This document shows positions 5,277 to 29,607 of a stretch of 64,000 nucleotides of DNA, piece by piece. How positions within the stretch are numbered: the stretch's first letter is position 1; each line of letters starts with the position of its first letter. The notes under the pieces were generated by a model, which saw only the letters and a program-made list of their open reading frames with translations, did no database searches and was not told the origin of the DNA. The position numbers were made by a program, and so were the translations under genes. The DNA lies in contig NZ_JAAXPA010000005.1 in the NCBI RefSeq assembly GCF_012396235.1, forward strand, positions 124,001-188,000. The letters are read 5' to 3'. Source of the stretch: Rhodococcus opacus (GTDB lineage: Bacteria > Actinomycetota > Actinomycetes > Mycobacteriales > Mycobacteriaceae).

Positions 5277-5287
5277 AGGTAGGACAT

Positions 5288-6543: not shown

Positions 6544-6551
6544 GGCTGACG

Positions 6552-7469: not shown

Positions 7470-7470
7470 C

Positions 7471-7980
7471 ATGACCACCGCCGTGCGCAGCGACGCCCGT
7501 CGCCTCGCCGAATCCGTGCTCGACCCCGAGATGCCGATGCTCACGCTCGCCGATCTCGGTGTGCTGCGCGACGTCGAGGAATACGCCGACGGGTCGGTGG
7601 TCGTGACCATCACCCCCACCTATTCCGGTTGCCCCGCGATGGCCACCATGCGGGACGACATCGAGCACACCCTGCAGGACGCCGGGTTCGGCAGCGTCGA
7701 GGTCAGGACCGTCCTGTCGCCGCCGTGGAGCACGGACTGGATCAGCGAGAACGGCAGGCGCAAGCTCCGCGAGAACGGTTACTCGACTCCCGGTCCCGCG
7801 CCGCGACGCGCATCGGGCCCGGTGCCGTTGACCCTCACCGTCAAGCCGCGACCCGTGGCATGCCCCAAGTGCCACTCGGCGAACACGCGGCTCGACTCGG
7901 AATTCGGGGCGACGCTGTGCAAGGCGCTCTACCGGTGCCTGGACTGCCTCGAACCCTTCGATCACGTGAAGGAAATCTGA
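7471..7980 (+). CDS. paaD: 1,2-phenylacetyl-CoA epoxidase subunit D (Fe-S/metal maturation factor)
   Basis: MIP18/SufT-like protein thought to mature the epoxidase. 169 aa (E. coli 165). The N-terminal DUF59 domain has LDPEMPMLTLADLGVLRDV and the TYSGCPAM motif. The C-terminal zinc-type knot has CPKCHSANT and, 22 residues on, CLDC, with TLCKALYRC between. It begins 1 nt after the paaC stop, so translation is probably coupled. Confidence 0.95.
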   Translation: MTTAVRSDARRLAESVLDPEMPMLTLADLGVLRDVEEYADGSVVVTITPTYSGCPAMATMRDDIEHTLQDAGFGSVEVRTVLSPPWSTDWISENGRRKLRENGYSTPGPAPRRASGPVPLTLTVKPRPVACPKCHSANTRLDSEFGATLCKALYRCLDCLEPFDHVKEI

Positions 7981-7982
7981 CC

Positions 7983-9080: not shown

Positions 9081-9112
9081 CCATACCCAGCCCGCCCACC
9101 CCGGAGACTAGA

Positions 9113-10411: not shown

Positions 10412-10422
10412 GGTGATCGAAG

Positions 10423-11452: not shown

Positions 11453-12297
11453 GTGGGACCGCTGGAACTGCGCGAGTACACCGGGCTCGACGCCGTCGGT
11501 CTGAGTGAGCTGATCCGGGCCGGTGAGGTGACGGCAACGGAGGTCGAAGCCGTTGCGCGCGTCGCGATCGCGCAGGCCGATGCCGACCTCGGCGCACTGA
11601 CGATGCGCACGGCAACGACGGCGCCGGTTCGCTCCGGGTGCCTGCCTCGTGCTGCGGGCTCGTCGGCCTGAAACCGAGCCGCGGCCGAATCCCCTGCGGC
11701 CCACTGGTCGGTGAGGCGGGGTTCGGGCACATCTACGAGTTCGCCCTCACCCGGACCATCCGCGACACGGCCCATTTGCTGGACGCCGTCGCCGCCCCGC
11801 CGGTCGGTGAAAAGTACACCGCCCCGGCGCAGTCCGGTCGCTACGCCGACACGATGCGCGCCGATCCCGGCCGTCTGCGGGTGGCCCTGACGACCGAGCC
11901 GTGGGGCGGGAGTTCGGTCGAGATGCAGGTATCGGCGGCCACGATCGCCGCAGGCAAGATCCTCGAATGGATCGGCCACACTGTGACCGAGACGCGCCCG
12001 CAATTCGACGCGGAGGACGTCGTCGAGGCGTCGACACTCACTGCGATCGCCACGGGTGCGGCGATCCTGCGCTCGTGGCTACGCCGCATCTTCGAGTTCG
12101 GACCGTTCACGGCACCGTTCAACGTGTCCGGGTATCCCGCGGTCAGCCTGCCGCTCGCGCTGAGCAGGGAGGGCCTCCCCATTGGCGTCCAGCTCGTCGC
12201 GGCCACCGGCAGAGAGGATCTGCTGCTGCAGGTGGCCGCGCAGTTGGAGCAGGCTGCGCCGTGGAAGGATCGCCAACCGTCGATCTTCGTCGACTGA
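11453..12297 (+). pseudogene. amidase (amidase-signature family) remnant with internal deletion and frame change
   Basis: A normal amidase N-terminus (LREYTGLDAVGLSELIRAGE) starts at GTG 11453 and runs about 50 codons. Near 11600 the reading must shift frame to continue as DAHGNDGAGSLRVPASCCGL, which in intact amidases follows the GGSS signature about 120 residues further on. The rest (to 12297) is a good amidase C-terminus, including SGYPAVSLPLA and GLPIGVQLVA. The deletion has removed exactly the catalytic Lys-Ser-Ser region, so no activity is expected. It converges on the intact amidase at 12314-13591 with 16 nt between. Confidence 0.8.
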
Positions 12298-12313: not shown

Positions 12314-13591
12314 TCAGAGTACGGCTTCCAGCCACGCTGCTGTTTCGAACAGGCGTTGCTCGGCGCCGGGACGCCCGATCAGCTGTAATCCGAGGGGAAG
12401 ACCCGCGCTGTCACGCTTCCCGGGGATCGTGACCACCGGCAGACCCATGGCCTGCCACGGTCGGCTCAGGATGGGCGTTCCGGTCGCGTCGTGCCCGGGT
12501 GGAGCGGCGCCGAGAGCCGCGGGCCCGAGGATTGCTTCGTCCTCGTCCAACGTCGAGAGCAGCAGCTGTCGGGTCTCGCGGATTCCGGCGAGGGCGGTAC
12601 GGTAGTCGGCTTCTGCGGTCGCCGCCCCCGTGGCGAACAGTTCGGCGAGGGGTGCGCTGATCTTGTCGGTCTGCGCGGCCTCTGCGGCGCGTTCCCTGGT
12701 CGCCTCGTACGCCATCACGGTGTGGTGGTGTTCCGTCAGTGCCACAATCGTTGCGGCGGCGTCCAACTCACGGCACCCGATCCCCGCCGACTCGGCGGAA
12801 TCAGCGGTAGTCCTGAGCGCCGCCGTCATCTCTCGGGACACCTCGCCGAGCTCGAACCCACTCCAGAGGCGAAGCCGGCGCGGAGCGGAAGGCTCGAGAA
12901 CGGGCGCCCGCGTGCCGTCGCGCAGTGCGGTCCACGCGAAGTGGAGATCGGGCACGGTTCGTGCCAGCAGCCCCACCGTGTCGAGACTGGGACTCAGCCC
13001 GGTGATGCCCGCGGTCGGAAGTTCGCCGTGGGCGGTGACGAAACCTGCGACTCCGCAGAACGACGCGGGCCTCGTCAGCGACCCCGCGGTCTGCGTGCCG
13101 AACGCCAGCGGCACCATGCCCGCGGCCACCGCTGCCGCCGAGCCGCTCGACGACCCGCCGGGGGTGTGACCCAGGGCGCGGGGATTGCGGGTCGGGCCGG
13201 GTTTGAAATACCCGAACTCGGTGGTGACGGTCTTGCCGAACGGGAGCGCGCCGAGTGCGCGCGACCGTGCCACACAGTCGGCGTCCGTCGTCGCCGGTTC
13301 CGTGCTCCGCAGCTCACTGCCACAGCGCGTCGGCATACCGGCGACGTCGATGAGATCCTTGACGCCGACGGGCACGCCCCAGAGCGCGCCGTCCGGGCCG
13401 CTGTCCTGGATCCGGGCGGCCGCGGACCGCACCGAGTCGGCATCGAGGTGGGCCCAGGCGTGGATATCCGGCTCGAGGTCCGCGATCCGTGCGAGTGCCG
13501 CCTCCGCCACGTCGATCGGCGTTGTCGCGCCCGTCGCCAGCTGCTCGGCCAGGTCCCGGAGTGGGCTCGGTGACCGGAGTTCCGTCCTCAT
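12314..13591 (-). CDS. iacH: amidase-signature hydrolase, probable IacH
   Basis: 425-aa amidase. The catalytic triad motifs are intact: Lys in VPVGVKDLIDV, the Ser-rich GHTPGGSSSGSAAAVAAG, and TAGSLTRPASFCG with the nucleophile Ser. The ATG at 13591 overlaps the upstream symporter gene by 4 bp, so it is the last gene of the leftward iacG-DUF485-symporter-amidase operon. IacH amidases accompany iac clusters in proteobacteria; their exact step in IAA breakdown is not settled to my knowledge. An open frame continues upstream through the symporter gene but is out of frame with it and is not part of the protein. Confidence 0.75.
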   Translation of the reverse strand: MRTELRSPSPLRDLAEQLATGATTPIDVAEAALARIADLEPDIHAWAHLDADSVRSAAARIQDSGPDGALWGVPVGVKDLIDVAGMPTRCGSELRSTEPATTDADCVARSRALGALPFGKTVTTEFGYFKPGPTRNPRALGHTPGGSSSGSAAAVAAGMVPLAFGTQTAGSLTRPASFCGVAGFVTAHGELPTAGITGLSPSLDTVGLLARTVPDLHFAWTALRDGTRAPVLEPSAPRRLRLWSGFELGEVSREMTAALRTTADSAESAGIGCRELDAAATIVALTEHHHTVMAYEATRERAAEAAQTDKISAPLAELFATGAATAEADYRTALAGIRETRQLLLSTLDEDEAILGPAALGAAPPGHDATGTPILSRPWQAMGLPVVTIPGKRDSAGLPLGLQLIGRPGAEQRLFETAAWLEAVL

Positions 13592-15138
13592 TGCATCGCC
13601 ACCATCGTGTCGTCGTTCGTCGTCTCGGTCTGCCCGGTGAGTGCTCGGGTGCGCATCACCGAGAAGAGGCGATCGGCTCGTGCTTTCGTCTCCCCGGACG
13701 GTGCCGACAACAGCGCGACAATGACGGACACCGCCAGCGAGAGGGGTGCCACGGCAAGTGCCGGGTTCGAGAATCCGAGGATGGAGTCCGGTCCCTGCAC
13801 GACCGGGCTGAGCAGGATGACGGTGACCGACAGGACGAGCCCGACCACGATCCCGGAGATGACGGCGCGCGCCGTCATGCGCTTCCAGTACATGGTCAGA
13901 AGCAGTGCCGGTAGGTTCGCACATGCTGCGATGGACATGCCCAGTGACGCGAGGAACGCGACGTTCTGCTTCTGCGCCGCGAATGCGATGGCGACACCGA
14001 TGACGCAGGTGGCCACCGTCGCGACGCGGGCCGCGCGGTGCTGAGCCTTCGCCGACACCGATCCGTTCCTGATCACCTGCCCGTACAGGTCGTGTGCGAT
14101 CGCACCGGAGGTGGCGATCACCAGGCCGGACAGCGCGGCCAGAATGGTCACGAACGCCACGGCCGCGACGAACGCCAGCAGGACTCCGCCGCCGACTGTC
14201 TCGGCGAGCTGCGCGACCGCGAGGTTGCCGCCCCGATTCTCGGACTTGATCACCTCGACACCGACCAGCTTGGCGGCGCCGTAACCGAGCACGGGAACCA
14301 GCAGGTAGAAGGCGAAGAAGATCCAGATCGCCGTGTAGGCGGACGTTCTCGCCTGCTTCGCGTCCGGAACGGTGAGGAAGCGGATCATCACGTGCGGCAG
14401 GCCGAGCACGCCGAGCACGAGCCCGACGGTCTGCGACAACTGGTCGAACGACGCGGTACCGGACGTGCGCTGCGGCGCGACGAACGACTGCCCGAACTCG
14501 GCGAGCGCGGTGCTGAACGGGCCGAAGGGATTGAAGTCGAAGCGCACCAGCACGAGAACGAACAGCACGACGGCGCAGACCATGAGGAGACCGGTTTTGA
14601 TGATCTGGATCCAACTGGTAGCGAGCATGCCACCCACCAACGTGTACGCGGTGGTGAGTGTTCCGATGATCAACACGGCCACGGCGTAGTCGAGGTCGAA
14701 CAGCAACGACACCAGAAGCGCGGCACCGACCAGCTGCGACACGAGATAGACCACGCTGATCACCACCGTGCTGATCGCCATCATCGACCGCACGTCCTTG
14801 CCGGGGAACCGGGTGGCGAGGACATCCGCCAGCGTGAAGCGGCCGAGGTTGCGCAGGGGTTCCGCGATCAGCAGCATCGCGAGGACGAACGCGACGGGCA
14901 CGAAGACCGCGAGGTAGAACCCGTTGAAACCGGTCAGCGCGATCGCACCGGTGACTCCGAGAAACGAGGCGGCAGAGATGAAGTCGCCGGCGATGGCGAC
15001 ACCGTTCTGCCTGCCGGTGAGGCTGCCGCCCGCGACGTAGTGATCGGCGGCGGACTTGTTCCTCTTGGAAGCCCACGCGGTGATCATCAGGGTGACAGCG
15101 ACGAGGGCCGCGAAAAGTGATGCGGAGACGAGGTTCAT
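13588..15138 (-). CDS. solute:sodium symporter (SSS family, ActP-like)
   Basis: 516-aa membrane protein with about 13 hydrophobic segments. Family features are GDFISAASFLGVTGAIAL (residues about 50-70), FTLADVLATRF, and GGMLATSWIQIIKT. Closest named relatives are ActP/MctP acetate and monocarboxylate symporters. It lies 6 nt after a DUF485 gene, the usual partner of ActP-type carriers, and overlaps the amidase by 4 bp. Given its place inside the iac cluster, indole-3-acetate (or a related monocarboxylate) is the inferred substrate; acetate is the alternative. Confidence 0.85.
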   Translation of the reverse strand: MNLVSASLFAALVAVTLMITAWASKRNKSAADHYVAGGSLTGRQNGVAIAGDFISAASFLGVTGAIALTGFNGFYLAVFVPVAFVLAMLLIAEPLRNLGRFTLADVLATRFPGKDVRSMMAISTVVISVVYLVSQLVGAALLVSLLFDLDYAVAVLIIGTLTTAYTLVGGMLATSWIQIIKTGLLMVCAVVLFVLVLVRFDFNPFGPFSTALAEFGQSFVAPQRTSGTASFDQLSQTVGLVLGVLGLPHVMIRFLTVPDAKQARTSAYTAIWIFFAFYLLVPVLGYGAAKLVGVEVIKSENRGGNLAVAQLAETVGGGVLLAFVAAVAFVTILAALSGLVIATSGAIAHDLYGQVIRNGSVSAKAQHRAARVATVATCVIGVAIAFAAQKQNVAFLASLGMSIAACANLPALLLTMYWKRMTARAVISGIVVGLVLSVTVILLSPVVQGPDSILGFSNPALAVAPLSLAVSVIVALLSAPSGETKARADRLFSVMRTRALTGQTETTNDDTMVAMQ

Positions 15139-15144
15139 GGCGCG

Positions 15145-15438
15145 TTATCCTTTCGCCCGCGAGGCGGTCCGGGAGTCGAGTTCGGCTGCCCGCGCCATGT
15201 AGTACCGGGCCACGACGATGGCGACGACGAATTGCGCCACCGCGTAGAGCCACGCCACCGTGACACCGCTGAAGACGACGCCGTCGAGCAGCGAGGTGAA
15301 CCCACCGAGGATCGGCAGGGGCAGGAACAGTGCGAGGACCAGGGCGCTGAGACGAAACGTCAAGGCGGCACGCGTGTCTGCGAGCACCTGCAGGTCGGAA
15401 TTCTGTGGGACTTGTTCGGGCGGTGACGAGGTGACCAT
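15145..15438 (-). CDS. DUF485 membrane protein
   Basis: 97 aa with two hydrophobic segments (about residues 32-50 and 59-80) and a basic C-terminus. It matches the DUF485/YjcH pattern, a small partner encoded next to ActP-like symporters. It is 2 nt downstream of iacG and 6 nt upstream of the symporter, so all are co-transcribed. Likely an accessory subunit of the carrier; no enzymatic motif. Confidence 0.8.
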   Translation of the reverse strand: MVTSSPPEQVPQNSDLQVLADTRAALTFRLSALVLALFLPLPILGGFTSLLDGVVFSGVTVAWLYAVAQFVVAIVVARYYMARAAELDSRTASRAKG

Positions 15439-15440
15439 GG

Positions 15441-16034
15441 CTATTTACCTCCGGCTGCGGCGGGAACGAGGGCGGGCGTCACGGTGATCGGATCGGACCA
15501 TTCGTCGTAGAACAGCCAGTCGGGGGACTCGACCGGAACCGACAAACGGTGGAATTTGCGTTGGAAGTAGACGAGGCTGTCGCCGTGTTCGCGCGTCTGC
15601 ACGCGGTCCAGTTCGACGAACATCACCGAATGCGATCCCACGGTCTTGCTGTCCGCGATCCGGCCGGCGAGCACCACGTGTGCGGCGCGCAGGATCGGAA
15701 CACCGTCGTCGGTGTCTTCTTCCCAGATGTCCCACTGGAACCGGTCCGCCATCGCGACTTGGGTTGCGCCCGCGAAATGCATGGCCAGCTCTTCGTCGTC
15801 GCCGGAGAGCACGTTGATACCGACTCGGCCGTTGTTCCGGAATACGTTGTGCATGGCGCTGTTCTGATTCACGCACACGAGTGCGGTGGGCGGGGAGTCG
15901 GTCACCGAGCAGACGGCGGTCACCGTCATTCCGCAGCGCCCGGCAGGGCCGTCGGTCGTCACGATGTTGACCGCGGCCGGCAGATTCGCCATGGCGGTGC
16001 GGAAGATCGATTGCATGGTTGTGAGTTCGGGCAT
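15441..16034 (-). CDS. iacG: flavin reductase (HpaC-like), probable IacG
   Basis: 197-aa NAD(P)H:flavin reductase of the HpaC/RutF type. It has AVNIVTTDGPAGRCGMTVTAV, CVNQNSAMHNVF, and GINVLSGDDEELA, with the terminal GSHSVMFVELD segment. Expected to supply reduced flavin to the two-component monooxygenase IacA. ATG 16034 is preceded by GGAGACGAA; an open frame continues upstream but lacks that signal. First gene of the leftward iacG-H operon, divergent from the response regulator. Confidence 0.82.
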   Translation of the reverse strand: MPELTTMQSIFRTAMANLPAAVNIVTTDGPAGRCGMTVTAVCSVTDSPPTALVCVNQNSAMHNVFRNNGRVGINVLSGDDEELAMHFAGATQVAMADRFQWDIWEEDTDDGVPILRAAHVVLAGRIADSKTVGSHSVMFVELDRVQTREHGDSLVYFQRKFHRLSVPVESPDWLFYDEWSDPITVTPALVPAAAGGK

Positions 16035-16169
16035 TTCGTCTCCATGAGTTGGAACAGGAAGTCGTGTCACCACGTTGCGCCGGCGTTCCTGCAAGAAGGA
16101 TATGACGCGCGTCGTGCGCTGGAACATTGGCGGCGACGCTACTTTCGCGCAGTAAGTCGCGTATCCGAG

Positions 16170-16182
16170 TAGGGGATTCCTT
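16170..16182 (+). promoter_or_regulatory. candidate response-regulator site between iacG and the response-regulator gene
   Basis: TAGGGGATTCCTT matches 11 of 13 bases of TAGGGAAATCCTT, read on the minus strand at 22668-22680 in front of iacA. These are the two divergent intergenic regions of the iac cluster. The 223-nt region 16035-16257 shows nothing else I can name. Confidence 0.35.
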
Positions 16183-16257
16183 CAGTTGCCTACCGCTTCC
16201 GTTACGGTCGGTGTTGACTGGACGAGGAAGCAAGCCATCTGTGCGAGGCAGGATTCG

Positions 16258-16878
16258 ATGGATCAGCAAGAAACACGGGTTTACATCGTCGACGACGATC
16301 AGGAGTTGTGCGCATCGCTTGCATGGCTACTCGATTCGGTCAACATCACGTCGGAGTACTACTTCTCCGTTCAGTCGTTCCTGGACGAGTACCGCCGCGA
16401 CATCCCGGCCTGCCTCGTACTGGACGTCCGCATGCCGGAAGTCGGGGGATTCCAACTCCAGGAGGCACTCCTCGCCGACGAATCCCCGATCCCGATCATC
16501 TTCGTGTCGGCGCACGGTGACATCAAGATGTCGGTGCGGGCCCTCCAGCGGGGTGCGCTGACATTCATCGAGAAGCCCTACGATCCGCAGCACATGCTCG
16601 ACGTCATTCAGGACGCGCTCCGGGTTGCGCGTCAACGGTTCGGCGAACGTCGGACGAGAACGGAATTGCAGGGACGAATAGACGCGCTGACGGTGCGAGA
16701 AAAGGAAATCCTCGCACTCGTCCTCGACGGATTGCCGAGCAAGAACATTGCGAAAGAGCTGGGAATCAGCGTGAAGACGGTCGACGTGCATCGCACCCGT
16801 ATCAAGGAAAAGACCGGAGCGGAAAGCATCGCGGTTCTCGTACGCGATATTCTGCAGGCCGGAATTGCCGTCACCTGA
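16258..16878 (+). CDS. FixJ/NarL-type response regulator of the iac cluster
   Basis: 206 aa. The receiver domain has acidic pocket residues in YIVDDDQ, phospho-acceptor Asp56 in LVLDVRMP, and a conserved Lys in FIEKPYDP. The C-terminal LuxR HTH (about residues 140-200) has LTVREKEILALVLDGLPSKN and VKTVDVHRTRIKEK. The last ATG of a longer open frame (16258) is chosen because it precedes the receiver core and follows GAGGCAGGA. The cognate kinase is probably the PAS kinase at 22736-24241. This replaces the MarR-type IacR of Pseudomonas clusters. Confidence 0.88.
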   Translation: MDQQETRVYIVDDDQELCASLAWLLDSVNITSEYYFSVQSFLDEYRRDIPACLVLDVRMPEVGGFQLQEALLADESPIPIIFVSAHGDIKMSVRALQRGALTFIEKPYDPQHMLDVIQDALRVARQRFGERRTRTELQGRIDALTVREKEILALVLDGLPSKNIAKELGISVKTVDVHRTRIKEKTGAESIAVLVRDILQAGIAVT

Positions 16879-16894
16879 AATAATTCAGTTCTCT

Positions 16895-17854
16895 TCAGGG
16901 AAGTTCGACGAGTAGTCGCCCGGATTTCGCGCGCGACACACACGCGGCAATTCTGTCTCCCGCCTTTCTCTCACTCTTGGTGAGGCAATTGTCGCGGTGG
17001 TCGGGCTCGCCCTCCAGCACTTCCAGGACGCACGTGCCGCAGATACCTTCCCGGCACGACGTGTCGATCTCGATGTCGTTCTCTTCGAGTACGTCGGCGA
17101 TGGACTTCCCGGCAGGCACCTCGAACACCTCGCCCGTGTCGAGTTCCAACTCGAACGCCGTGTCCGATCCGGTCGCGGTAGGCGTCGCCGCCTCGAAGTG
17201 TTCGAAGTGGACCGCGTCCTCCCCGACAGCGGGTTCCGCCAACCCTCGCACCCGATCCATGAAACCTTCGGGGCCACAGGTGTAGACGTGCGTGGCGGCG
17301 GACGCGTCCGCCAGGATCTTCTCGAGGGCGGAGAGCTGGTCGTCCCTCTTCAGGCCGAAGTGCAGGTGCACGTCCCGGCGGAGATCCGCGCTCTCCAGCA
17401 GTTCGACGAACGCGGCCTGCGCCCTCGTCCGCGCGAAGTAGTGCAGGTCGAACTGTTGTCCCTGCCGGTGCAACGCGAACGCCAGACTCAGCATCGGGGT
17501 CAGCCCGATCCCCGCCGCCACGAGGATGTGCCGATCGGCGCCCTCGGCGAGCGTGAGCAGTGTGCGCGGCCGGCTGATCTGCAACTCGCTGCCGATCGTC
17601 ACACGATCGTGCAGTGCGGCCGAGCCGCCGCGGGGTCCGGTCTCGCGTTTGACGGCGACCACATAGGATTCGGACTCGTGCGGCGGACTGCACAGCGAGT
17701 ACTGGGTGAGGACCTCGGTGGGGCCGAGGATGTCGATGTGGGCGCCGGCAGGGTACGGGTCGAACGGTGAACCGTCCGTCCGAACAAGCCGGAACGATTT
17801 GATGTCCGGCGTTTCCTCGACAATGTCCGCAACAGTGACAGTGAACATGCTCAT
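16895..17854 (-). CDS. iacF: oxygenase reductase (FNR plus ferredoxin), probable IacF
   Basis: 319-aa PDR/VanB-type reductase. The flavin domain has TQYSLCSPP, the NAD domain AAGIGLTPMLSL and CGPEGFMDRV. The C-terminal [2Fe-2S] domain has CREGICGTC and a distal Cys in NCLTKSE. It would pass electrons from NADH to the Rieske oxygenase IacCD. The start at 17854 has GGAGG 10 nt upstream; ATG 17848 is possible. Last gene of the leftward iacA-F operon, 16 nt from the end of the convergent response-regulator gene. Confidence 0.85.
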   Translation of the reverse strand: MSMFTVTVADIVEETPDIKSFRLVRTDGSPFDPYPAGAHIDILGPTEVLTQYSLCSPPHESESYVVAVKRETGPRGGSAALHDRVTIGSELQISRPRTLLTLAEGADRHILVAAGIGLTPMLSLAFALHRQGQQFDLHYFARTRAQAAFVELLESADLRRDVHLHFGLKRDDQLSALEKILADASAATHVYTCGPEGFMDRVRGLAEPAVGEDAVHFEHFEAATPTATGSDTAFELELDTGEVFEVPAGKSIADVLEENDIEIDTSCREGICGTCVLEVLEGEPDHRDNCLTKSERKAGDRIAACVSRAKSGRLLVELP

Positions 17855-17899
17855 GGTGATTTTTCCTCCGGTGCTGCGACCCGTCGCCCTGGAGCGGGG

Positions 17900-18640
17900 T
17901 CAGCGCATGTACAGGCCGCCGTTGACGTCCCAGCAGGCTCCCGTGACCGACGCGGCCGTCGGCGATGCGAGCAGGGCGACGGTCTCGGCTATGAAGTCGG
18001 GCGAGCCCAGGGTGCCCACCGGAATCGTGGTGAGGATGGCGGCCAGCTTGTCCGCGGGCACCGTCTCACGCACCACCGGTAGATCCAGAGGACCAGGGGA
18101 GACGGCGTTCACCGTGACACCCGACGGGGCGAGTTCGCGTGCGAAGACCTTGGTCAGTGTGCCGACGCCGCCCTTGGCCGCGGCGTAGTGCGCGCCGGTC
18201 GCCGTGCCACCGTTCTGTCCCGCCAGCGACGCGATGTTGACGATTCTGCCGTATCGCTTCTCGGCGAAATAGCTTCCGAACACCTGGCAGCCGAGAAAGG
18301 CGCCGTTGAGGTTGATCTCGACGATGTCGGAGAATTCCTCCGGTGCGATGTCCATCAGCGTGCCCGTCTGCGACCGGCCGGCGTTGTTGACGAGGACGTC
18401 GATGCCGCCCCACTCCTGGATCAGCCGGTCACGTACGGCTTCGAAACTCTTCCGCTTCCGGACGTCCAACTCCACGCCGATGGCCGTGTCGCCGTCCGGA
18501 TCCAGGTCCGCCGCGGTCTCTTTCGCGGCACCGCTGTCGATGTCCGCGACCGCGACGCGGTATCCGCGGTCGTGCAATTGGTGTGCGATCGCGGCACCGA
18601 GGCCGCGTCCGCCGCCGGTGACTACTGCGACAGAATCCAC
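17900..18640 (-). CDS. iacE: short-chain dehydrogenase/reductase, probable IacE
   Basis: 246-aa classical SDR. Cofactor motif TGGGRGLGAAIA at the N-terminus, VNNAGR near residue 85, catalytic Ser in NIASLAG and YAAAK (Tyr-x-x-x-Lys) near 155. GTG 18640 is chosen: AGGAG lies 6 nt upstream and the protein begins at the Rossmann strand, whereas longer frames do not. IacE is reported to act on the hydroxylated product of IacA in IAA breakdown; here the role is inferred from position between iacD and iacF. Confidence 0.82.
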   Translation of the reverse strand: MDSVAVVTGGGRGLGAAIAHQLHDRGYRVAVADIDSGAAKETAADLDPDGDTAIGVELDVRKRKSFEAVRDRLIQEWGGIDVLVNNAGRSQTGTLMDIAPEEFSDIVEINLNGAFLGCQVFGSYFAEKRYGRIVNIASLAGQNGGTATGAHYAAAKGGVGTLTKVFARELAPSGVTVNAVSPGPLDLPVVRETVPADKLAAILTTIPVGTLGSPDFIAETVALLASPTAASVTGACWDVNGGLYMR

Positions 18641-18681
18641 GTCGAGCTCCTGTTCGATCGATGAGGTTCGGAAAATGCTGG

Positions 18682-19170
18682 TCAGAGCAGGTAGCCGGAG
18701 GCGTTGACCGCTGCCTGCGAGTTCACCAGCCGGATGACCTTGAGATCCAACCGCGGTCCCCTCTCGGTGTAGCGGATGCGGTGCGTGACGTCGGCGGCGA
18801 GGGTCTGCTGATCGTCGCGCTTGAAACCCACGAGGATTTGCGCGGACCTCACGGTGATCGAGTCCTCGGTTCGCTCCTCGACCGTGAACCGCGAGACGGT
18901 GCGGACCGTCCGGGCGGCGGCGAGCGCGGACATCGAGTATCCGGAGGTCAGGCGTTCGATACGCATGCGCCGCATGCGAGTGTCGTCGTTGACCATGTTC
19001 AGGGATCCGTCGAAGTCGTCGGTGTCCGGGTCGATGGGAATGATGTACCGGCCTTCGTCGGTCCAGAGGGCGTCCCACGCCTGGTAGTCCTTGGCGTCGA
19101 GGAGGGCCGCTTCGTGCCAGATGAGTTCGATCGCCTGCAGTACCCGGGTGTCGGCGAGTTGGGCGGTCAT
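18682..19170 (-). CDS. iacD: aromatic-ring dioxygenase beta subunit, probable IacD
   Basis: 162-aa small subunit with the SnoaL-like cone fold (EAALLDAKDYQAWDALWTDE at the N-terminus; HRIRYTERGPRLDLK near the C-terminus). Structural partner of the Rieske alpha subunit immediately upstream (4 nt gap from its stop). ATG 19170 has GAGG 9 nt upstream; ATG 19185, inside the alpha-subunit end, is nearly as good. Confidence 0.85.
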   Translation of the reverse strand: MTAQLADTRVLQAIELIWHEAALLDAKDYQAWDALWTDEGRYIIPIDPDTDDFDGSLNMVNDDTRMRRMRIERLTSGYSMSALAAARTVRTVSRFTVEERTEDSITVRSAQILVGFKRDDQQTLAADVTHRIRYTERGPRLDLKVIRLVNSQAAVNASGYLL

Positions 19171-19174
19171 CAGA

Positions 19175-20464
19175 TCAGTCCTCATCGGTCATCATCCTCT
19201 TCCACATTGCGTAGGCCTCGCGCATGCCGGTCTCGTCGGTGACGTGCGAGGTGCGGTGTCCGTCGCTGTCGAGCGCTTCACGATTGAGACCGCGGTTCAC
19301 CATGATCGGCATTCCGGGTGCGCCGCGGGATCCGCGTTGTACCCGGTCCCAGGCCTCGGAATCGTCGGGGCTGCCGAACCCGAACGGGCCCTGGAAATGT
19401 TCGTGGATGCGGAGGCGTTCGCGGTTGACGATCTCCGGTCCGCCGTCCATGCCGAGGGCGATGTGCCGGATCTCGGTCTCGTCGACCGAGATCGGGCGTA
19501 GTACCCGGAAGAATGACATCGACATCGCGACGTTGGGGAAGATGTTGAGGTTGAACCCGGCGCCGTGCATGGAGCGGACGATGCGGCGGACCTTGTCGGC
19601 GGGCATCGTCTTCGACAGTTCTTCGACGATGTGGTCGAAACGGGCCTGAATCTTCTCGGTGCCGTCGTCGTGGTCCAGGTCGACGTGCTCCGGGACCATG
19701 ATGGCGACGCTGTGGCCGTTTCCGAGAGCGTGGGTCACGGCGTTGTCGTCGGTCATGAAGGAGAGCATGTCGGCGGTCTCGGCGTCGACGGAGGACATCC
19801 AGGATCGGTGCACGATCGGGAAGTGGTATCCGTCGGTGGTGTTCTCCAACTGGATCTTCCAGTTTCCGCGGAAGCGGAAGCAATGTTCGCCCTGCGTCTT
19901 GATGGGGTATCCGGCGCCCTGCTTCATGAACAGGTCGATCCATACCTTCGCGTCGCCGAGGAAGTCGTCGAGGGGTTCGACGTCGGGGTTGAAGCTGGCG
20001 AAGATCATCCCGGCGTAGGACTCCACCCGCAGGCTCTGCAGGGGCAGGTCCTTCTTGTCGAGGTCCTCGTCGTAACCATCGGGGTACGGGATTCCGCGCA
20101 GTCGCCCGTCGAGGGCGTACGACCAGCTGTGATAGGGGCAGGTGAACCCGTTCGCCTTGCCCTTGGGGACCTCGCAGACGCTGGCCCCGCGGTGGCGGCA
20201 CCGGTTCAGCAGGACATTGAAGTTCCCCTTGCGGTCGCGGTTGACGATCACCGGTTGCCGGCCGATGGTCGCCATCTTGTAGCTTCCGGCCTCGGGGATC
20301 TCGCTCTCGTGGGCAACCCAAACCCAGGTGCGGTAGAAGATCCTTTCGAGTTCCGCCTCGAACATGTCGGGGTCGGTGTACAGCGATCCGTCCACGCGGT
20401 CGTCCGTGGCGAGGGCCGCGAAGTTGGTGTCTGTAGTGGTGGTGGGATCCAGGGAAGTGGTCAT
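19175..20464 (-). CDS. iacC: Rieske non-heme iron oxygenase alpha subunit, probable IacC
   Basis: 429 aa. The Rieske cluster ligands are Cys89 and His91 (CRHRGA) and Cys109 and His112 (CPYHSW). Mononuclear iron histidines His214 and His219 are in DGYHFPIVH. With IacD and IacF it forms the ring-hydroxylating oxygenase that gives catechol at the end of the iac route. The start ATG 20464 overlaps the upstream stop by one base (TGATG). GTG 20467 is in frame too. The oxygenase family is certain; the substrate is inferred from the cluster. Confidence 0.87.
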   Translation of the reverse strand: MTTSLDPTTTTDTNFAALATDDRVDGSLYTDPDMFEAELERIFYRTWVWVAHESEIPEAGSYKMATIGRQPVIVNRDRKGNFNVLLNRCRHRGASVCEVPKGKANGFTCPYHSWSYALDGRLRGIPYPDGYDEDLDKKDLPLQSLRVESYAGMIFASFNPDVEPLDDFLGDAKVWIDLFMKQGAGYPIKTQGEHCFRFRGNWKIQLENTTDGYHFPIVHRSWMSSVDAETADMLSFMTDDNAVTHALGNGHSVAIMVPEHVDLDHDDGTEKIQARFDHIVEELSKTMPADKVRRIVRSMHGAGFNLNIFPNVAMSMSFFRVLRPISVDETEIRHIALGMDGGPEIVNRERLRIHEHFQGPFGFGSPDDSEAWDRVQRGSRGAPGMPIMVNRGLNREALDSDGHRTSHVTDETGMREAYAMWKRMMTDED

Positions 20465-20964
20465 CACGTTCTCTTTCCATTCGATTCGAGCAGTCGTGTC
20501 GCCTCGTCGAGCCGAGTGACGAACAGCTTCTCGGTCGTGAAGTGCTTGATTCGGGCGATACCGCCCCGCACTTCACACTCGGCGGTGATGCGTGCGACGA
20601 GCAGTTCGGCCGATTCGTCCTCGTATCGCGACAGCTGCTGCATGATCCACCGCCCCCGCGCCGCGGGGCCGTCCACGTCGATCTGCTCACTCCCGAGCAG
20701 GTGCACATTTCCCCGAAAATGGGAGTTCGGTGGAAGGTACGCGGTGAGCATTCCGACGATCTCCGGCCGGCCCCGACGTGTGCCGAACTTGCGCGCGTAC
20801 TCGGCGCCGATCCCTTCCCACACCGCGTCGGGCGTGAACAGCGAGGCGAGTTCCTCGACCGAAAACTCCACGGAGGGGACATCGCACAGTTCCATGTAGC
20901 GGCACATCACGCGGTGAACGGCCTCGCGGCTCTCGATGCGCTCGGTCGCGGTCGCAGAGTGCAT
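20464..20964 (-). CDS. iacI: SnoaL/NTF2-like protein, probable IacI
   Basis: 166-aa protein of the SnoaL/dioxygenase-beta-like fold (CRYMELCDVPSVEF; LASLFTPDAVWEGIG; GRWIMQQLSRYED). It is related in fold to IacD but encoded separately between iacB and iacC, as in described iac operons where IacI takes this place. ATG 20964 follows GAGG. Its role would be hydration, isomerisation or ring opening of an oxindole intermediate; no catalytic residues can be assigned with confidence. Confidence 0.7.
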   Translation of the reverse strand: MHSATATERIESREAVHRVMCRYMELCDVPSVEFSVEELASLFTPDAVWEGIGAEYARKFGTRRGRPEIVGMLTAYLPPNSHFRGNVHLLGSEQIDVDGPAARGRWIMQQLSRYEDESAELLVARITAECEVRGGIARIKHFTTEKLFVTRLDEATRLLESNGKRT

Positions 20965-20969
20965 TTTCC

Positions 20970-21347
20970 TCACACGCCGAGGTCGACGTCTTCGCGGACG
21001 GTGAGCGCACGGCCGATGCGGGCTTCGATCTTCGCGTATCGCCACAGCGTGTACTCGCCGACCGGGGTGGTGCGGAAGAGGTTGCAGACGGCCTTGACGG
21101 TCTCCTGGGTGTCGACGTCGGCGAGGATGTAGCAGGTCCAGGGCCAGCCGTCCGACGGTCCGACCAGGTGGCTGTCGTCGTCGATGTCGCCGATCACCCG
21201 GACGCCCGGTGTCTCGGCCACCGCGTCCATCATCCCGGAGAACGCCTTCCACACCAGCCCGCCCTGGCCGGTCGGGAGGTCGAAGAAGTTCTGATTGATG
21301 CCGATGCAGAACAGGACTCGCAGCGGTGCGGTCTTGGTGTCACTCAC
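20970..21347 (-). CDS. iacB: small conserved protein, probable IacB
   Basis: 125 aa, no membrane segment or metal motif. Notable segments are RVLFCIGINQNFFDLP and WPWTCYILADVDTQE; the ferredoxin-like (dimeric alpha-beta barrel) appearance suggests a small enzyme or tailoring protein. The assignment rests on size and on its place directly after the monooxygenase gene (29 nt gap), where iacB sits in other clusters. I do not recognise the family independently of context. Confidence 0.6.
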   Translation of the reverse strand: MSDTKTAPLRVLFCIGINQNFFDLPTGQGGLVWKAFSGMMDAVAETPGVRVIGDIDDDSHLVGPSDGWPWTCYILADVDTQETVKAVCNLFRTTPVGEYTLWRYAKIEARIGRALTVREDVDLGV

Positions 21348-21376
21348 GATTGGTCTCCTCGATTGAAACGGGGTGG

Positions 21377-22537
21377 TCAGATGAAGCCGGGGAACGGCGG
21401 GATGTCCATGAGCACCGCACCGGCGCTGTCGTAGATGCCGTCGCCGAGGAAGGCATGCTGCGGCGGGACCAGGGCCTCGCGCATGTACCGCTGCATCGCG
21501 TTGCCGTCGTAGATCGCCCCGGTGCCCGACAACTGGAATGCGGTGTGCACGGCGGAGGCGCCCGCCTTGGCCACGTGCGTCGAGGACAGGCGAAGAAGCG
21601 CCGCAAGCTTGTCCGGGACGGGCTTACCGGCCACCACCGTGGCGTACGCCTCGTCGGTGACCTCGTAGAAGAAGGCACGGGCGGACCTCAGCGTCGCCTC
21701 CGCCTTGGCCAGGTCGATGCGGTAGTAGGCGCGATCGGCGAGCTTGGGCGCTCCGGTGATTCCCGTGCGTCCCGCGCCGACCTTGATCGCGTAGTCGAGC
21801 GCGGCGCGGCCCACTCCGAGATTGACGACGGCCAGGACCTGGGCGGCGTACGCGATGGAGGGGTAGCGGTAGAGGGGTTCGTCGACGGTCGGGGTTCCGC
21901 CACGGATGAACGTCCAATCCTCGGGGACGACGACGCCGTCGACCTTCAGTTCGTGGCTTCCGGTACCCGACAGGCCGACCACGTCCCAGTTCTCGACGAT
22001 CTCGACGTCCTTCGGCCACAGCAGGGCGGTGCGGGGTTTTCCGGCTGTGGAGTCGCCGCCGCGGATTCCGACACCGAGAATGTCGGCACCCTTGCATCCG
22101 CTGGCGAACTTCCACTGCCCGGTGATCTTCAGACCACCCGGCACCTGTTCGGCGGGTTGGACCGGGAACAGTCCGCCGGCGAAGACGAGGTCCGGGCTGT
22201 CCTTGTACAACTCCGCCTGTGTCGCGAGCGGCAGTGCCGCCAGGTAGACGAGGGCGGAGCCGAAGCTCGCAACCCAGCCCGCCGACGCGTCCACCGCGGA
22301 GATGCGTTCGATCATCCGCAGAAACTCGCTCGGGGGCAGCGCGTCGCCGCCGAATCGGCGGGGGGTCGCCGCGCGGTAGATGCCGATCTGCTTGAACTCG
22401 CCGATCATGTCGCGAGGCACGAACTTCTGGCGAGCGAACTCTTCCCGCCGCATTGCGACGTGCTCGAGGACGTCCTCGAAGGACAGCGTCCCGTTCGCGG
22501 AGGCGTCCGTCGTGTCGAGGGTCGGTGCGTTGGTCAT
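21377..22537 (-). CDS. iacA: acyl-CoA-dehydrogenase-like flavin monooxygenase, probable IacA
   Basis: 386-aa group D flavin monooxygenase (acyl-CoA dehydrogenase fold, like HpaH/HsaA), first enzyme of IAA breakdown, hydroxylating the indole ring with reduced flavin supplied by IacG. Family features are IGIYRAATPRRFGGD, DASAGWVASFGSA, and GQWKFASGCKGAD with LSGTGSHELKVDGVVVPED. ATG 22537 has GGAG at 7-nt spacing. It heads the leftward operon A-B-I-C-D-E-F. The exact hydroxylation product is known only from proteobacterial homologues. Confidence 0.83.
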   Translation of the reverse strand: MTNAPTLDTTDASANGTLSFEDVLEHVAMRREEFARQKFVPRDMIGEFKQIGIYRAATPRRFGGDALPPSEFLRMIERISAVDASAGWVASFGSALVYLAALPLATQAELYKDSPDLVFAGGLFPVQPAEQVPGGLKITGQWKFASGCKGADILGVGIRGGDSTAGKPRTALLWPKDVEIVENWDVVGLSGTGSHELKVDGVVVPEDWTFIRGGTPTVDEPLYRYPSIAYAAQVLAVVNLGVGRAALDYAIKVGAGRTGITGAPKLADRAYYRIDLAKAEATLRSARAFFYEVTDEAYATVVAGKPVPDKLAALLRLSSTHVAKAGASAVHTAFQLSGTGAIYDGNAMQRYMREALVPPQHAFLGDGIYDSAGAVLMDIPPFPGFI

Positions 22538-22667
22538 CAAATACTCCGATCGACGCGAAGTAGAAGGGGTGATGCGTTTTTCGTGTCGAATTCACGCTAT
22601 TGCGGTGGCGGGCATCACTCAATCGGTGCTTCCTCCCGCGGACGTGCAGAGATGTCGCCTCGGAGTA

Positions 22668-22680
22668 AAGGATTTCCCTA
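22668..22680 (-). promoter_or_regulatory. candidate response-regulator site upstream of iacA
   Basis: On the minus strand this reads TAGGGAAATCCTT, resembling the element at 16170-16182. It lies about 130 nt upstream of iacA and 56 nt upstream of the kinase gene. The remainder of the 198-nt divergent region shows no clear promoter. Confidence 0.35.
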
Positions 22681-22735
22681 TCGTGTCCGCGGTCCGTCCG
22701 CTCAGTAGACTCGAGGTGAGCCGAAGGAGGCCGCA

Positions 22736-24241
22736 TTGTCCGATCTCGCGCCGTCCGACTACGAACGACTCGTCGAGTCCCTTCGCTACTGCGTCCTGGT
22801 CCATGATGCGGCCACCAAGGACATCCTCTGGGCGAACCGGGCTGCGTCCGAACTGCTCGAGTTCACGGTCGAGGAACTCAAACCGCTCAAGGCGCCCGAC
22901 ATGAGTTCCCCGGCGAAGCGGTACCGCCGGTCGGTGGGACGGCGGTGGCTGCAGGAGGCTGTCGACAACGGGGCGGCGGTCGTCGAATGGACGTATCGCG
23001 CGAAGAGCGGGCGAGAAATCCTGACGGAGGCGATCGCGATCCGGGTCGAGTTGAGCGCCCGGACCGTGGTGATGGTGCAGTTCCGCGACATCGAGCAGGA
23101 AACGTCGATGCGTCGCGACCTCACCCGCACCGAGGCCGACCTCACCCGCACCGAGGCCCGCCTGGCCGCGTTCCTGCGGAACATGGCCGAAGGAATCCTC
23201 GTCCTGGACGACGACAGCCGTATCACGTACGCGAGTGAGGCGGCGTCGCAGCTGCTGAAGGTTCCGGTGGCATCGCTTGTCGGCGAACGCTTCACGGAGT
23301 TCTGCCGGGCGGGGCAGTCACGGGAGAGCGTGCGGCGCGCCCTGCAACTGACGACCGCAGACGGGGGCTCCCAGAGCCTGCGCTACGAGGTGGAACTGTC
23401 AGCCGAGGAGCGCCGGTGGCATGCGGGGAGCTGCCAGCACATCGGTATCGAGAACGATCTGAGCGGCCACCTGCTGCTCTTCCACGACGTCACCGAACAC
23501 GTCCGCACCGAGCAGGAGCACGAACGGGACTCGCAGTACCTCAATTACCTGGCCCGCTACAACGCGATGGGCGACATGGCGATGGCCATCGCTCACGAGT
23601 TGGCCCAGCCGCTCGCGGCCGCCACCAATTTCATCGCCGGAACGCAGAGCCGCCTCGACGACGGCCGGACCGGTCACGACGAGGTGAGCTGGGGCCTGGG
23701 GGAGGCGCGCAAGCAGATCGACCGGGCCAATCAGATCGTCCGGAGTCTGCGTGAATACGTGACGCAACTCGAGGAGTCACAGCAGATCGTCGATCTCAAC
23801 GACATCGTCGACGAATGCGCGTATTTCATCGACATCCGGGCGCGGCAGAAGGGAGTTCACGTCGAGTACCTCCGTGCGCACGACACGGTTGCCGTCGTGT
23901 GCGAACGTGTGCTCACCGGGCAGGTCATCCTGAACCTCTGTTTCAACGCGATCGACGAGATGGCGGAATGGCCGGCAGCCGACCGCATCGTGACGGTACG
24001 CACCGACGTCACCGAGACGGAGGGCGTCGTGAGCGTCGAGGACCACGGCAAGGGGCTCTCGCACATCCCGGACGGCCGAATCTTCGACGGCGCGTTCACC
24101 TCGAAGTCCACGGGTCACGGAATCGGGCTCGCACTGAGCCACCGCATCATCACCCGCCAGGGTGGGACACTCACCGCACGCGAGAACGATCCGCACGGGG
24201 CCGTCTTCACGTTCACGTTGCCCGCCGATCCGAACCACTGA
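22736..24241 (+). CDS. PAS-domain sensor histidine kinase of the iac cluster
   Basis: 501-aa soluble kinase. The first PAS domain spans about residues 10-125, then a short coiled linker, a second PAS at about 145-260, the HisKA box with His287 in AIAHELAQPLA, and an HATPase domain with LNLCFNAIDEM, VEDHGKGL and GHGIGLALSH. No membrane segment, so it senses a cytoplasmic ligand, plausibly IAA or a catabolite. The start is TTG at 22736 behind AAGGAGG (22724-22730). Fused-type relatives are StyS/TodS/FixL. Divergent from iacA. Confidence 0.88.
   Translation: MSDLAPSDYERLVESLRYCVLVHDAATKDILWANRAASELLEFTVEELKPLKAPDMSSPAKRYRRSVGRRWLQEAVDNGAAVVEWTYRAKSGREILTEAIAIRVELSARTVVMVQFRDIEQETSMRRDLTRTEADLTRTEARLAAFLRNMAEGILVLDDDSRITYASEAASQLLKVPVASLVGERFTEFCRAGQSRESVRRALQLTTADGGSQSLRYEVELSAEERRWHAGSCQHIGIENDLSGHLLLFHDVTEHVRTEQEHERDSQYLNYLARYNAMGDMAMAIAHELAQPLAAATNFIAGTQSRLDDGRTGHDEVSWGLGEARKQIDRANQIVRSLREYVTQLEESQQIVDLNDIVDECAYFIDIRARQKGVHVEYLRAHDTVAVVCERVLTGQVILNLCFNAIDEMAEWPAADRIVTVRTDVTETEGVVSVEDHGKGLSHIPDGRIFDGAFTSKSTGHGIGLALSHRIITRQGGTLTARENDPHGAVFTFTLPADPNH
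23117..23158 (+). repeat. 21-bp perfect tandem duplication in the kinase linker
   Basis: GACCTCACCCGCACCGAGGC plus C occurs twice in tandem (23117-23137 and 23138-23158). It encodes the heptad DLTRTEA twice, in the coiled linker between the two PAS domains. Confidence 0.9.
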
Positions 24242-24339: not shown

Positions 24340-24609
24340 GTGGACTATTCGCATCATCACCGGACATTCCTGACCTGTTACGCCGACACCCACCGCTACG
24401 GGTGGCACCACGTCGACCTCTTTGTGCACGACGAGGACGGCAACGAAGTGAACTGGGTCCACTGGCAGACCCGGGAGGACGGACCGGACGGCGCCGACGC
24501 GGCTACCGCGCGCGTCGAGCCGAACCTGAGACGGACCACCGACTGGCAACGCGGAATCAGCGCCAACGGAAGCGAGTACTGGATCGCCGAGGCGGCATGG
24601 GCTCAGTGA
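24340..24609 (+). CDS. small hypothetical protein
   Basis: 89 aa starting at GTG 24340 with GGAGG at 24329-24333. Rich in His, Trp and acidic residues (DYSHHHRTF; YGWHHVDLFVHDEDG; NWVHWQTRED). No signal peptide or membrane segment. Not recognised. It is separate from iac (98 nt after the kinase) and a small inverted repeat, GTGGTG-ggaaa-CACCAC, lies just upstream at 24304-24320. Confidence 0.55.
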   Translation: MDYSHHHRTFLTCYADTHRYGWHHVDLFVHDEDGNEVNWVHWQTREDGPDGADAATARVEPNLRRTTDWQRGISANGSEYWIAEAAWAQ

Positions 24610-24718
24610 ATCGGCAGATCGGGTAGACCGGGGAATGCTCTCGGTAGAGCACGACTGCCTCGATTCGCAGCGCGCCCCCTCCATTGCCTCCACGCCCGGC
24701 GTCGCGCGGGTCGATTGT

Positions 24719-24748
24719 GCCATCGCCATCGCCATCGCCATCGCCATC
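24719..24748 (+). repeat. (GCCATC)5 hexanucleotide microsatellite
   Basis: Five uninterrupted copies of GCCATC, lying between the small gene at 24340 and the true end of the Lrp-type regulator. It is read as (Gly-Asp)n only in the frameshifted tail of that gene, so it is probably non-coding. Confidence 0.9.
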
Positions 24749-24798
24749 GCCGCCGCTGCTCACGCGGAGCGCGTCACCGACCGAGATTGCGGCAACAG

Positions 24799-25804
24799 TT
24801 ACGGCTCTATGGGTACCGTGCCGACGCGGCGACCGCCGGTATCGAGCACTGCTCCCAGCCGTTTCACGGTCTCCAACGTCACCTCTCGTTCGACAACCGA
24901 AAGCTCCGGTTGCTCTCTCCAAGCGGGTTTCGAAAACCTGGAGATCGCCGACGTGGCGCAGCCATACCGTGAGCACGAGATTGGACCGTCCCGTCACTCC
25001 GCAGCAGACACGGACCTCGGGGTACTCGACGAGATCACGTCCCACCGTGTCGAGACACTTCGCGGGAACGCGCGCCCAGATCGTGGCGGTGACCGGCCAG
25101 CCGTTGAGGACGTGTGCGACTTCGCAACGGACCGAGAGGATTCCCTCACTCACGAGTCGGTCGAGACGCTTTCGCACAGTGGGTGCGCTGACACCGATCT
25201 GCTCGGCGAGTTCGACGGCCGACCGCCGCCCGTCGGGAGCGAGGGCCGTCATCAGCCTCTGCTCGTCTGCCCTGGGTGGCCGGGTCATCGTGCCTGTGTC
25301 GGGCACGTACGGACTGAGCACGTGCTGTTGCATCGGGCTGAGCGACCCGAGTCGCCACCGCACGCTCTCACCGTAAATGCGCGTCACGATCTTCGTTCGG
25401 ATTCCGCGAACACCGTCGACGCGACTGAGGTCGTTCCGGATCCACTCGGACAGTGCACGGAGGTCAGCGACCATCACCGTCAGGAACAGGTCTTGTTCAC
25501 CCGCGACGACCTGAATGCTCGCGACCTGCGGCACCGTCGTCAGCAACGTGGTCACATGCTCGCGTCGAGTGGGTTCGCAGGTCACGTCGACGAATGCGCT
25601 GCACTGGGCGTTGAGGAGCGACGGCCCGGGGTACGCGATCACCCATGCCACACCGTCCTGCACGAGTCTGTCCCAGCGCCGGGAGGCGGTGACGGGGCTG
25701 ACCTGCAACGCCTCGCTCACCGCGCCCCACGGCGCGCGCGGGGCGATCTGCAGCGCGTGAGCGATCTGGTAGTCGATCTCGTCGAGCACCGCCTCATTCT
25801 GCAT
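24799..25804 (-). pseudogene. two-module Lrp/AsnC-family regulator with a frameshift near its C-terminus
   Basis: Two Lrp units in tandem: HTH plus ligand domain at about residues 1-150 (IDYQIAHALQ; VAGEQDLFLTVMV) and again at about 180-330 (RSAVELAEQIGVSAPTVRKR; VTGRSNLVLTVWL). After FETRLERA the frame runs on through a low-complexity tail to 24557. A one-base shift near 24906-24912 instead restores LSVVEREVTLETVKRLGAVL and ends naturally at TAA 24799. Either a real inactivating indel or a sequencing error. Divergent from the MFS operon, its probable target. ATG 25804 or GTG 25807; the RBS is poor. Confidence 0.7.
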
Positions 25805-25942
25805 CACGGTCGCGAATATTTTCAGAATCGTCCAATCTCGGCCCTGGTTCGGCTCCGGACCTAAGTTGAGACCACTGCGACAGTCCGCTGCGGGAAATGC
25901 TTACTCCCGGTGTGACTCCGACCCAATCGAAGGAGCTGATCG

Positions 25943-27361: not shown

Positions 27362-27405
27362 TCATCCAACCGGTCACGAGATGGCCAGAAGAGGGAGAGC
27401 TTCAC

Positions 27406-29528: not shown

Positions 29529-29553
29529 CGGGAGTGGTCCACGACGGTTCCCG

Positions 29554-29588: not shown

Positions 29589-29607
29589 GCTCAGATAGGT
29601 AAGCCGA

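Follow-up and report, generated by a model that had tools for sequence, protein, structure and literature searches.

Organization of the iac gene cluster

A stretch of 64,000 nucleotides from Rhodococcus opacus (contig NZ_JAAXPA010000005.1, positions 124001-188000; genome of 8.1 Mb in 109 contigs), here called the window, was analyzed. It harbors an iac cluster for predicted degradation of the auxin indole-3-acetate (IAA) that is complete by gene content and otherwise ordinary. The genes form two leftward operons on the minus strand, iacA-B-I-C-D-E-F (22540-16895), spaced from a 45-bp gap down to short overlaps, and iacG-DUF485-symporter-amidase (16034-12314). Divergent from each operon, a regulator is encoded on the plus strand: a histidine kinase beside iacA and a response regulator beside iacG. 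An actinobacterial iac cluster divided into two such operons had been proposed in an earlier note on this DNA, and gene content, gene order and the trees described below support it. All genes listed there are present, but the symporter and DUF485 genes of the second operon had been omitted. Every cluster gene is intact, with an open frame and on the strand previously claimed. The features are as follows:

12314..13591, minus strand: amidase in the iacH position (PF01425, 7.4e-65)
13588..15138, minus strand: sodium/solute symporter (SSS), MctC/ActP-related, proposed IAA importer
15145..15438, minus strand: DUF485 (YjcH-like) protein, symporter partner (PF04341, 2.5e-12)
15441..16034, minus strand: iacG, HpaC/RutF-type flavin reductase for IacA (open frame to 16127; GGAG before the ATG at 16034)
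16170..16184, plus strand: FixJ-like box between iacG and the response regulator gene, exact match to TAGGKRAWTYCYTYA
16258..16878, plus strand: FixJ-type response regulator (receiver and LuxR/GerE domains)
16895..17854, minus strand: iacF, ferredoxin reductase of the Rieske system (by synteny)
17900..18685, minus strand: iacE, short-chain dehydrogenase (SDR) with YxxxK
18682..19185, minus strand: iacD, Rieske oxygenase beta subunit (Pfam Ring_hydroxyl_B, 9e-19; synteny)
19175..20467, minus strand: iacC, Rieske oxygenase alpha subunit
20464..20964, minus strand: iacI, SnoaL-like protein (Pfam SnoaL_4, 1.7e-16)
20970..21347, minus strand: iacB, small protein diagnostic of iac
21377..22540, minus strand: iacA, flavin monooxygenase of acyl-CoA-dehydrogenase fold (alternative start ATG 22537)
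22666..22680, minus strand: FixJ-like box between iacA and the kinase gene, exact match to TAGGKRAWTYCYTYA
22736..24241, plus strand: PAS-domain histidine kinase (HELxQPL motif)

IacC carries the Rieske motif CxH-x16-CxxH and DGYHxxxxH, IacE the YxxxK motif, the regulator DVRMP, and the amidase GGSSSGS plus other amidase motifs. The only motif sought and missed was a loose kinase N-box pattern in the histidine kinase. Scans for sigma-70 promoters (0 found, 1.0 expected) and terminators (2 found, 5.6 expected) yielded nothing useful.

Relationship to known iac loci

No Iac protein is named by the NCBIfam models. IacA, IacC, IacD, IacE and IacF obtained distant names below the cut-offs (HsaA, anthranilate dioxygenase, FabG and others), and IacG scored just above the cut-off of the HpaC model TIGR02296 (206.6 versus 205.95 bits). 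Since the family models gave only distant names, the proteins were compared with those of known loci. Four plasmid proteins that carry the annotation 'IacB protein' (one each from Acinetobacter and Psychrobacter, two from Klebsiella) share 53-58% identity with the IacB of the window, which was matched by 28 plasmid records in all. IacA is 43-66% identical to plasmid proteins among the 40 matches listed of 434 records. Identity of IacC amounts to 59-60% in Acinetobacter and Klebsiella, 77% in a Cupriavidus and up to 81% in an Arthrobacter; IacI is 36-38% identical to the gene product at the same position in Acinetobacter NCu2D-2 and Klebsiella, and IacE 46-68% to the SDR of iac loci beyond the nearest Rhodococcus loci. 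The plasmid loci of Acinetobacter and Klebsiella, in which the B gene bears the IacB annotation, have the same order A-B-I-C-D-E-F. The window contains an IacA orthologue, IacB, IacC/D together with IacE and IacF, and IacI together with IacG.

For a wider comparison 97 loci were used, namely the R. opacus locus, 80 named loci and 16 plasmid loci. The named loci are the best 80 of at least 529 confirmed iac loci found in a scan of named genomes; they were chosen by nearness to the R. opacus IacB, so that all counts lean to this lineage. Among these best 80, 73 belong to Actinomycetota (Arthrobacter, Amycolatopsis, Saccharopolyspora, Pseudonocardia, Streptomyces, Mycolicibacterium and others), whereas loci of Acinetobacter, Klebsiella and Alphaproteobacteria were taken solely from plasmids. 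Each locus extends over flanks of 10-15 kb or to the end of its contig; absences are therefore lower bounds. Presence was scored by tblastn (E ≤ 1e-5, 40% coverage): iacA was detected in 96 loci, iacB in 97, iacC and iacD in 84 each, iacE in 96, iacF in 76, iacG in 71, the kinase gene in 84 and the regulator gene in 81, with matches of SDR, kinase and regulator belonging to common families. L049, labeled Cyanobacteriota and titled Rhodococcus as a metagenome-assembled genome, was counted as non-Pseudomonadota; one comparison omitted L093 (stop codon) as well as L074, L104 and L119. Within the GTDB family, IacB occurs in 37 of 301 genomes, including 10 of the 28 same-genus genomes listed.

A tree of IacA was rooted on five paralogues from the same genome (26-30% identity). 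It placed all 95 iac sequences on one side with 100% support (SH-like approximate likelihood ratio test, SH-aLRT); the tree was built by a quick method without L086, and the paralogues join on a long branch. In the IacC tree, which has no outgroup, the R. opacus protein groups with those of R. tibetensis and R. jostii. The trees place both proteins with iac loci, and IacA apart from its own paralogues. Among named organisms, R. tibetensis (98-99% identity for IacA and IacC) and R. jostii are the closest for this cluster; R. tibetensis (L050) and R. jostii NBRC 16295 (L051) share the whole cluster, its order, the symporter, the regulators and both boxes, with proteins 78-100% identical. Shared gene order and the placement of IacA and IacC argue that the gene set is beyond chance.

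Organisms named Rhodococcus carry several iac lineages, the jostii/tibetensis type including the present locus, a ruber type, and the YL-1 and USK13 plasmid types. Additionally, the trees of IacA, IacC and the symporter show the iac genes of L127, recorded as Kitasatospora arboriphila NRRL B-24581, to be nearly identical to those of Williamsia muralis (L125). The organism name on the L127 record looks wrong.

The roles of IacA, IacE, IacB and IacI and the reaction steps were taken from the studied pathway (PMC7225977; reaction steps also PMC9613470). IacB is predicted to adopt a ferredoxin-like fold (dimeric alpha+beta barrel; mean predicted local distance difference test score, pLDDT, of 81). 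A fold search returned only weak matches to chlorite dismutase/HemQ and YgiN/SnoaB (best E 2.2e-4, TM score about 0.5), and for this reason no function is claimed; a cofactor-free oxygenase or a binding protein may be considered as a lead only.

The amidase of the second operon is 29% identical to Acinetobacter IacH. In a tree comprising amidases from 17 chosen of 66 actinobacterial-type loci and 18 of 19 Hp matches (coverage >80%), the amidases of actinobacterial loci and the proteobacterial IacH-type amidases formed two clades. Forcing both clades together against ten amidases of the same genome lowered the log likelihood (lnL) by 9.03 (approximately unbiased, AU, test p 0.0325), with long branches present. 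The amidase announced in the earlier note is thus found in its operon, yet identity and tree place it outside the IacH clade, and 'IacH' is only a positional name for it. It is possible that the enzyme releases IAA from IAA-amides or indole-acetamide.

Two-component regulators and a probable wider lineage

A MarR regulator gene (IacR) was not matched in the window by the Acinetobacter query. Instead, a PAS kinase and a regulator with LuxR domain lie beside the iac genes, as in the two-component iac subtype (IacS/LuxR). The regulator scored 176 bits against the FixJ model PRK09390 (cut-off 255). In the kinase, the highest mean hydropathy over 19 residues is 1.60, which argues against a clear membrane span.

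A kinase homologue is present in 75 of 77 non-Pseudomonadota loci. The 13 kinase-free loci comprise 11 of 20 from Pseudomonadota and 2 of 77 others, these two being Amycolatopsis jejuensis, in which B and E alone were detected, and the USK13 plasmid, with transposase genes after iacF. In the 84 loci holding both genes the kinase gene lies within 600 bp of iacA in 74 and on the opposite strand in 64. The IacC tree, again made by a quick method, separated eight loci (Acinetobacter, Klebsiella and Alphaproteobacteria) from the other 75 with 100% support; in this group of eight the kinase was found in none and a MarR match in five. On the IacA tree, presence of the kinase requires three changes, and the corresponding split has only 82-88% support. 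Three Pseudomonas loci fall inside the wider two-component lineage. These trees suggest that two-component iac loci form a lineage, described here for the first time, which spans Actinomycetota and Burkholderia/Cupriavidus/Pseudomonas and stands apart from the sampled Acinetobacter, Klebsiella and alphaproteobacterial loci.

A two-component regulator was reportedly described in the study of Paraburkholderia phytofirmans PsJN by Donoso in 2017. The literature documents such a pair for PsJN as well as for four Pseudomonas strains (PMC11630574). The 'different regulator' of the earlier note is accordingly different in that it is not a MarR-type IacR, yet it resembles this printed pair.

A FixJ-like box in both promoters

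Exact inverted repeats were rejected as operator, as arms of five or six bases reached at most 5 of 64 promoters; the box then emerged from alignment. Aligned regions upstream of iacA from Rhodococcus and Arthrobacter-type loci revealed a conserved ATAGGKRAWTYCYTYA-like site, which recurs between iacG and the regulator gene. A position weight matrix (PWM) was built from nine iacA-upstream sites from 11 loci, and the 73 other two-component loci were held out; the upstream region was defined as -450 to +60 of the matched iacA start. The best PWM site of the entire locus lay upstream of iacA in 45 of the 73 held-out loci (Pseudomonadota 8/9, others 37/64), as compared to 1.93 expected by position alone. 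Five column-shuffled matrices placed it there in 2, 4, 0, 9 and 0 of 73 loci, and none of 12 kinase-free loci had its best site upstream of iacA. Among sites scoring at least 15 (top six per locus, 84 two-component loci including the training loci), 105 of 124 were upstream of a mapped cluster or cat gene, and 19 were not.

In the window, the site at 22666-22680 ranked first (26.6; a training site) and the site at 16170-16184 second (17.6; not used for training), followed by a score of 12.4. Exact matches to TAGGKRAWTYCYTYA occur twice in the 8.1-Mb genome, both in cluster promoters; two one-mismatch matches lie on other contigs, and a reversed control pattern gave one match. TAGGKRAWTYCYTYA was drawn partly from these two sites, and therefore the weight rests on its rarity elsewhere in the genome. 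The box resembles the FixJ site TAAGTAATTTCCCTTA (PMC4999443), as fits a regulator of FixJ type. From its conservation we infer that the regulator would act at this box.

The symporter is linked to iacB

The symporter scored 463.6 bits against the MctC model (cut-off 670), and its ActP match was also below the cut-off. At E ≤ 1e-150 it was found in 19 of the 301 family genomes. All 19 are among the 37 iacB-positive ones, and in each the symporter gene shares a contig with iacB and lies no more than about 9 kb from it (hypergeometric p 3e-20, uncorrected for relatedness); 18 iacB-positive genomes are without it at this threshold. Thirteen iac-linked symporters formed one group (support 100/99) apart from three paralogues of the same genome (38-43% identity; long branches). 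Because it is tied to iacB in all 19 genomes, the symporter appears to be a good candidate for an IAA importer.

Catechol cleavage

The Streptomyces catA query detected no catechol dioxygenase gene in the window, in agreement with the earlier note. However, catA-catB-catC are located on contig C44 (183523-185804) of the same genome. This excludes an incomplete pathway for want of catechol cleavage, so that the route from IAA via catechol to beta-ketoadipate would be encoded. CatA and CatC are 57% and 54% identical to the Streptomyces queries, and CatA reached 515.8 bits with TIGR02438 (cut-off 404.4). Furthermore, catA (≥40% identity to the Streptomyces query) lies inside the stretch examined in 18 of 97 loci, and on a linear plasmid of Streptomyces NBC_00564 (L041) the order iac A-B-C-D-E-F-G-amidase is directly followed by catB-catA-catC. 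This linkage supports catechol as the product.

Neighboring genes

Phenylacetate (paa) genes are located left of the iac cluster (1558-11382, plus strand). PaaA, PaaC, PaaE and PaaK exceed the cut-offs of their models. The set also includes a FeaR-like AraC regulator and a relative of 3-oxoadipyl-CoA thiolase, neither of which reaches its cut-off. Neighborhoods were compared in four relatives selected from nine same-genus iacB-positive genomes. The linkage of paa and iac is present in three of them, and G230 is without paa within its stretch. Between both clusters lies an amidase remnant (11605-12228, plus strand) which lacks the first third and an inner part and converges on the iac amidase gene; at this site G259 has a longer copy and G222 a split copy, and none was found in the G284 and G230 stretches. 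On the other side, 24557-31320 encodes a two-module Lrp/AsnC regulator (minus strand), a transporter of the major facilitator superfamily (MFS), a dehydrogenase-like protein whose matches are all weak, a 3-hydroxybutyryl-CoA-dehydrogenase-like protein (plus strand; 472 bits, cut-off 427) and an Amidohydro_3 protein (minus strand).

Discussion

The results make it highly probable that the window carries a complete iac cluster of the two-component-regulated lineage working as follows. The SSS symporter, together with the DUF485 protein, would import IAA. The PAS kinase, lacking a clear membrane span, would sense IAA or an early product and phosphorylate the FixJ-type regulator, which would bind one box in each divergent promoter and turn on both operons. 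IacA, with reduced flavin from IacG, is predicted to hydroxylate IAA in a first step to 2-hydroxy/2-oxo-IAA, and IacE to make dioxindole-acetate. By homology with the studied pathway, IacC/D and the reductase IacF, possibly assisted by IacB and IacI, would then lead to catechol. CatA would cleave the catechol, with CatB and CatC acting next. Judged from its genes, the set very probably degrades auxin for food.

Several observations weigh against this interpretation. The tree does not support the amidase as an IacH orthologue. The catABC genes lie outside the window, and catB was assigned at 30% identity to its query. The best box is not upstream of iacA in 28 of the 73 held-out loci. In 11 of the 73 (L042, L043, L054, L058, L060, L078, L103, L115, L118, L125 and L127) none of the top three sites is found there, and some of these have a box upstream of iacG or the regulator gene instead; furthermore, 4 of the 45 best sites (L099, L101, L111 and L120) score below 12. 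The symporter gene lies within the stretch in only 13 of 77 non-Pseudomonadota loci; hence, other transporters probably serve most relatives. Finally, homology does not fix the substrate, since the Caballeronia enzymes IacA and IacE act on many 3-substituted indoles (PMC7225977).

This broad substrate range, a symporter of monocarboxylate type and an amidase of another clade would also fit an iac-type pathway for a different 3-substituted indole, for example indole-3-propionate or indole-acetamide, or an indole detoxification, with IAA as a side substrate. We regard this as unlikely, because the full catechol-forming set is present, 18 of 97 loci are linked to cat genes, and the genes follow the order of iac-annotated loci. 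An iad-like locus or another Rieske/monooxygenase pathway of anthranilate, HsaA or XiaF type is extremely unlikely: although the names assigned by family models include HsaA, anthranilate dioxygenase and p-hydroxyphenylacetate hydroxylase, these three models score far below their cut-offs, and XiaF is among the solved structures nearest to IacA, ranked below Rv3094c and others. IacA and IacB match plasmid loci at 42-67%, and the five IacA paralogues fall outside the iac group. Moreover, the Variovorax iad locus lacks iacA (PMC9613470), whereas the R. opacus locus has it. An iad-like or anthranilate pathway was thus rejected on the low model scores, the plasmid matches of IacA and the IacA tree.

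Kinase families are common, and the kinase/regulator pair and the symporter might therefore be chance neighbors serving another function. This is unlikely, as 74 of 84 loci have the kinase gene no farther than 600 bp from iacA, the only two exact box matches of the genome are in the two cluster promoters, and a symporter without iacB was not found in the 301 genomes at E ≤ 1e-150.

The complete iac cluster proposed here shares enzymes and the order A-B-I-C-D-E-F with the plasmid loci of Acinetobacter and Klebsiella. Those loci, however, have the order H-A-B-I-C-D-E-F-G with an adjoining MarR gene, an IacH-clade amidase and no SSS symporter within the 24 kb examined, whereas in R. opacus a kinase and regulator are present, iacG and an amidase of another clade lie apart, and a symporter is included. 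Kinase and LuxR-domain regulator are shared with the two-component loci of PsJN and Pseudomonas (PMC11630574). The Cupriavidus, Ralstonia and Pseudomonas loci compared also carry the box upstream of iacA, but they have IacH-type amidases and other gene orders. For PsJN, the MFS transporters IacT1/T2 are named (PMC11676955). FixLJ resembles the present system in its regulator, which matches the FixJ model below the cut-off, and in a near-palindromic site of similar layout (PMC4999443); its signal is oxygen, whereas IAA or a product is proposed here.

Homologues of iac in Rhodococcus RHA1 are said to have been noted by Leveau and Gerards in 2008. An actinobacterial iac cluster is not new, as one has been predicted in Nocardiaceae (PMC12462448). 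Rhodococcus is listed among genera with complete aerobic IAA degradation (PMC11676955), and Actinobacteria among five phyla with auxin-degradation loci of a type unspecified there (PMC9613470). The available sections of PMC8383072, PMC9973260, PMC8022969 and PMC11373566 do not mention an actinobacterial iac locus. New are the two-component lineage across phyla, the FixJ-like box in both promoters and the iacB-linked symporter; searches of open-licence literature, not aimed at the symporter by name, turned up neither the box nor the two-phylum lineage, nor any description of the symporter as transporting IAA. The regulatory lineage seems under-described. For the iac two-component system of Pseudomonas, evolution or acquisition within that genus has been suggested (PMC11630574); the wider lineage speaks against such an origin.

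Taken together, the evidence slightly favors two old iac regulatory lineages. One, mostly actinobacterial and reaching Burkholderia/Cupriavidus/Pseudomonas, would be run by a soluble PAS-kinase/FixJ-type auxin sensor via a conserved FixJ-like box, with a dedicated auxin sodium/solute symporter in rhodococci and some other actinobacteria. If true, bacteria would possess a sensor kinase for auxin and a family of auxin importers, for which no characterized member was found. The box may also help to locate further genes under the same control. Bacteria that degrade auxin change the growth of roots, and most of the studied loci named in the papers cited here are proteobacterial and have MarR regulators. 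The R. opacus locus and its many actinobacterial likes point to another control system comprising a sensor kinase, a defined DNA site and a transporter.

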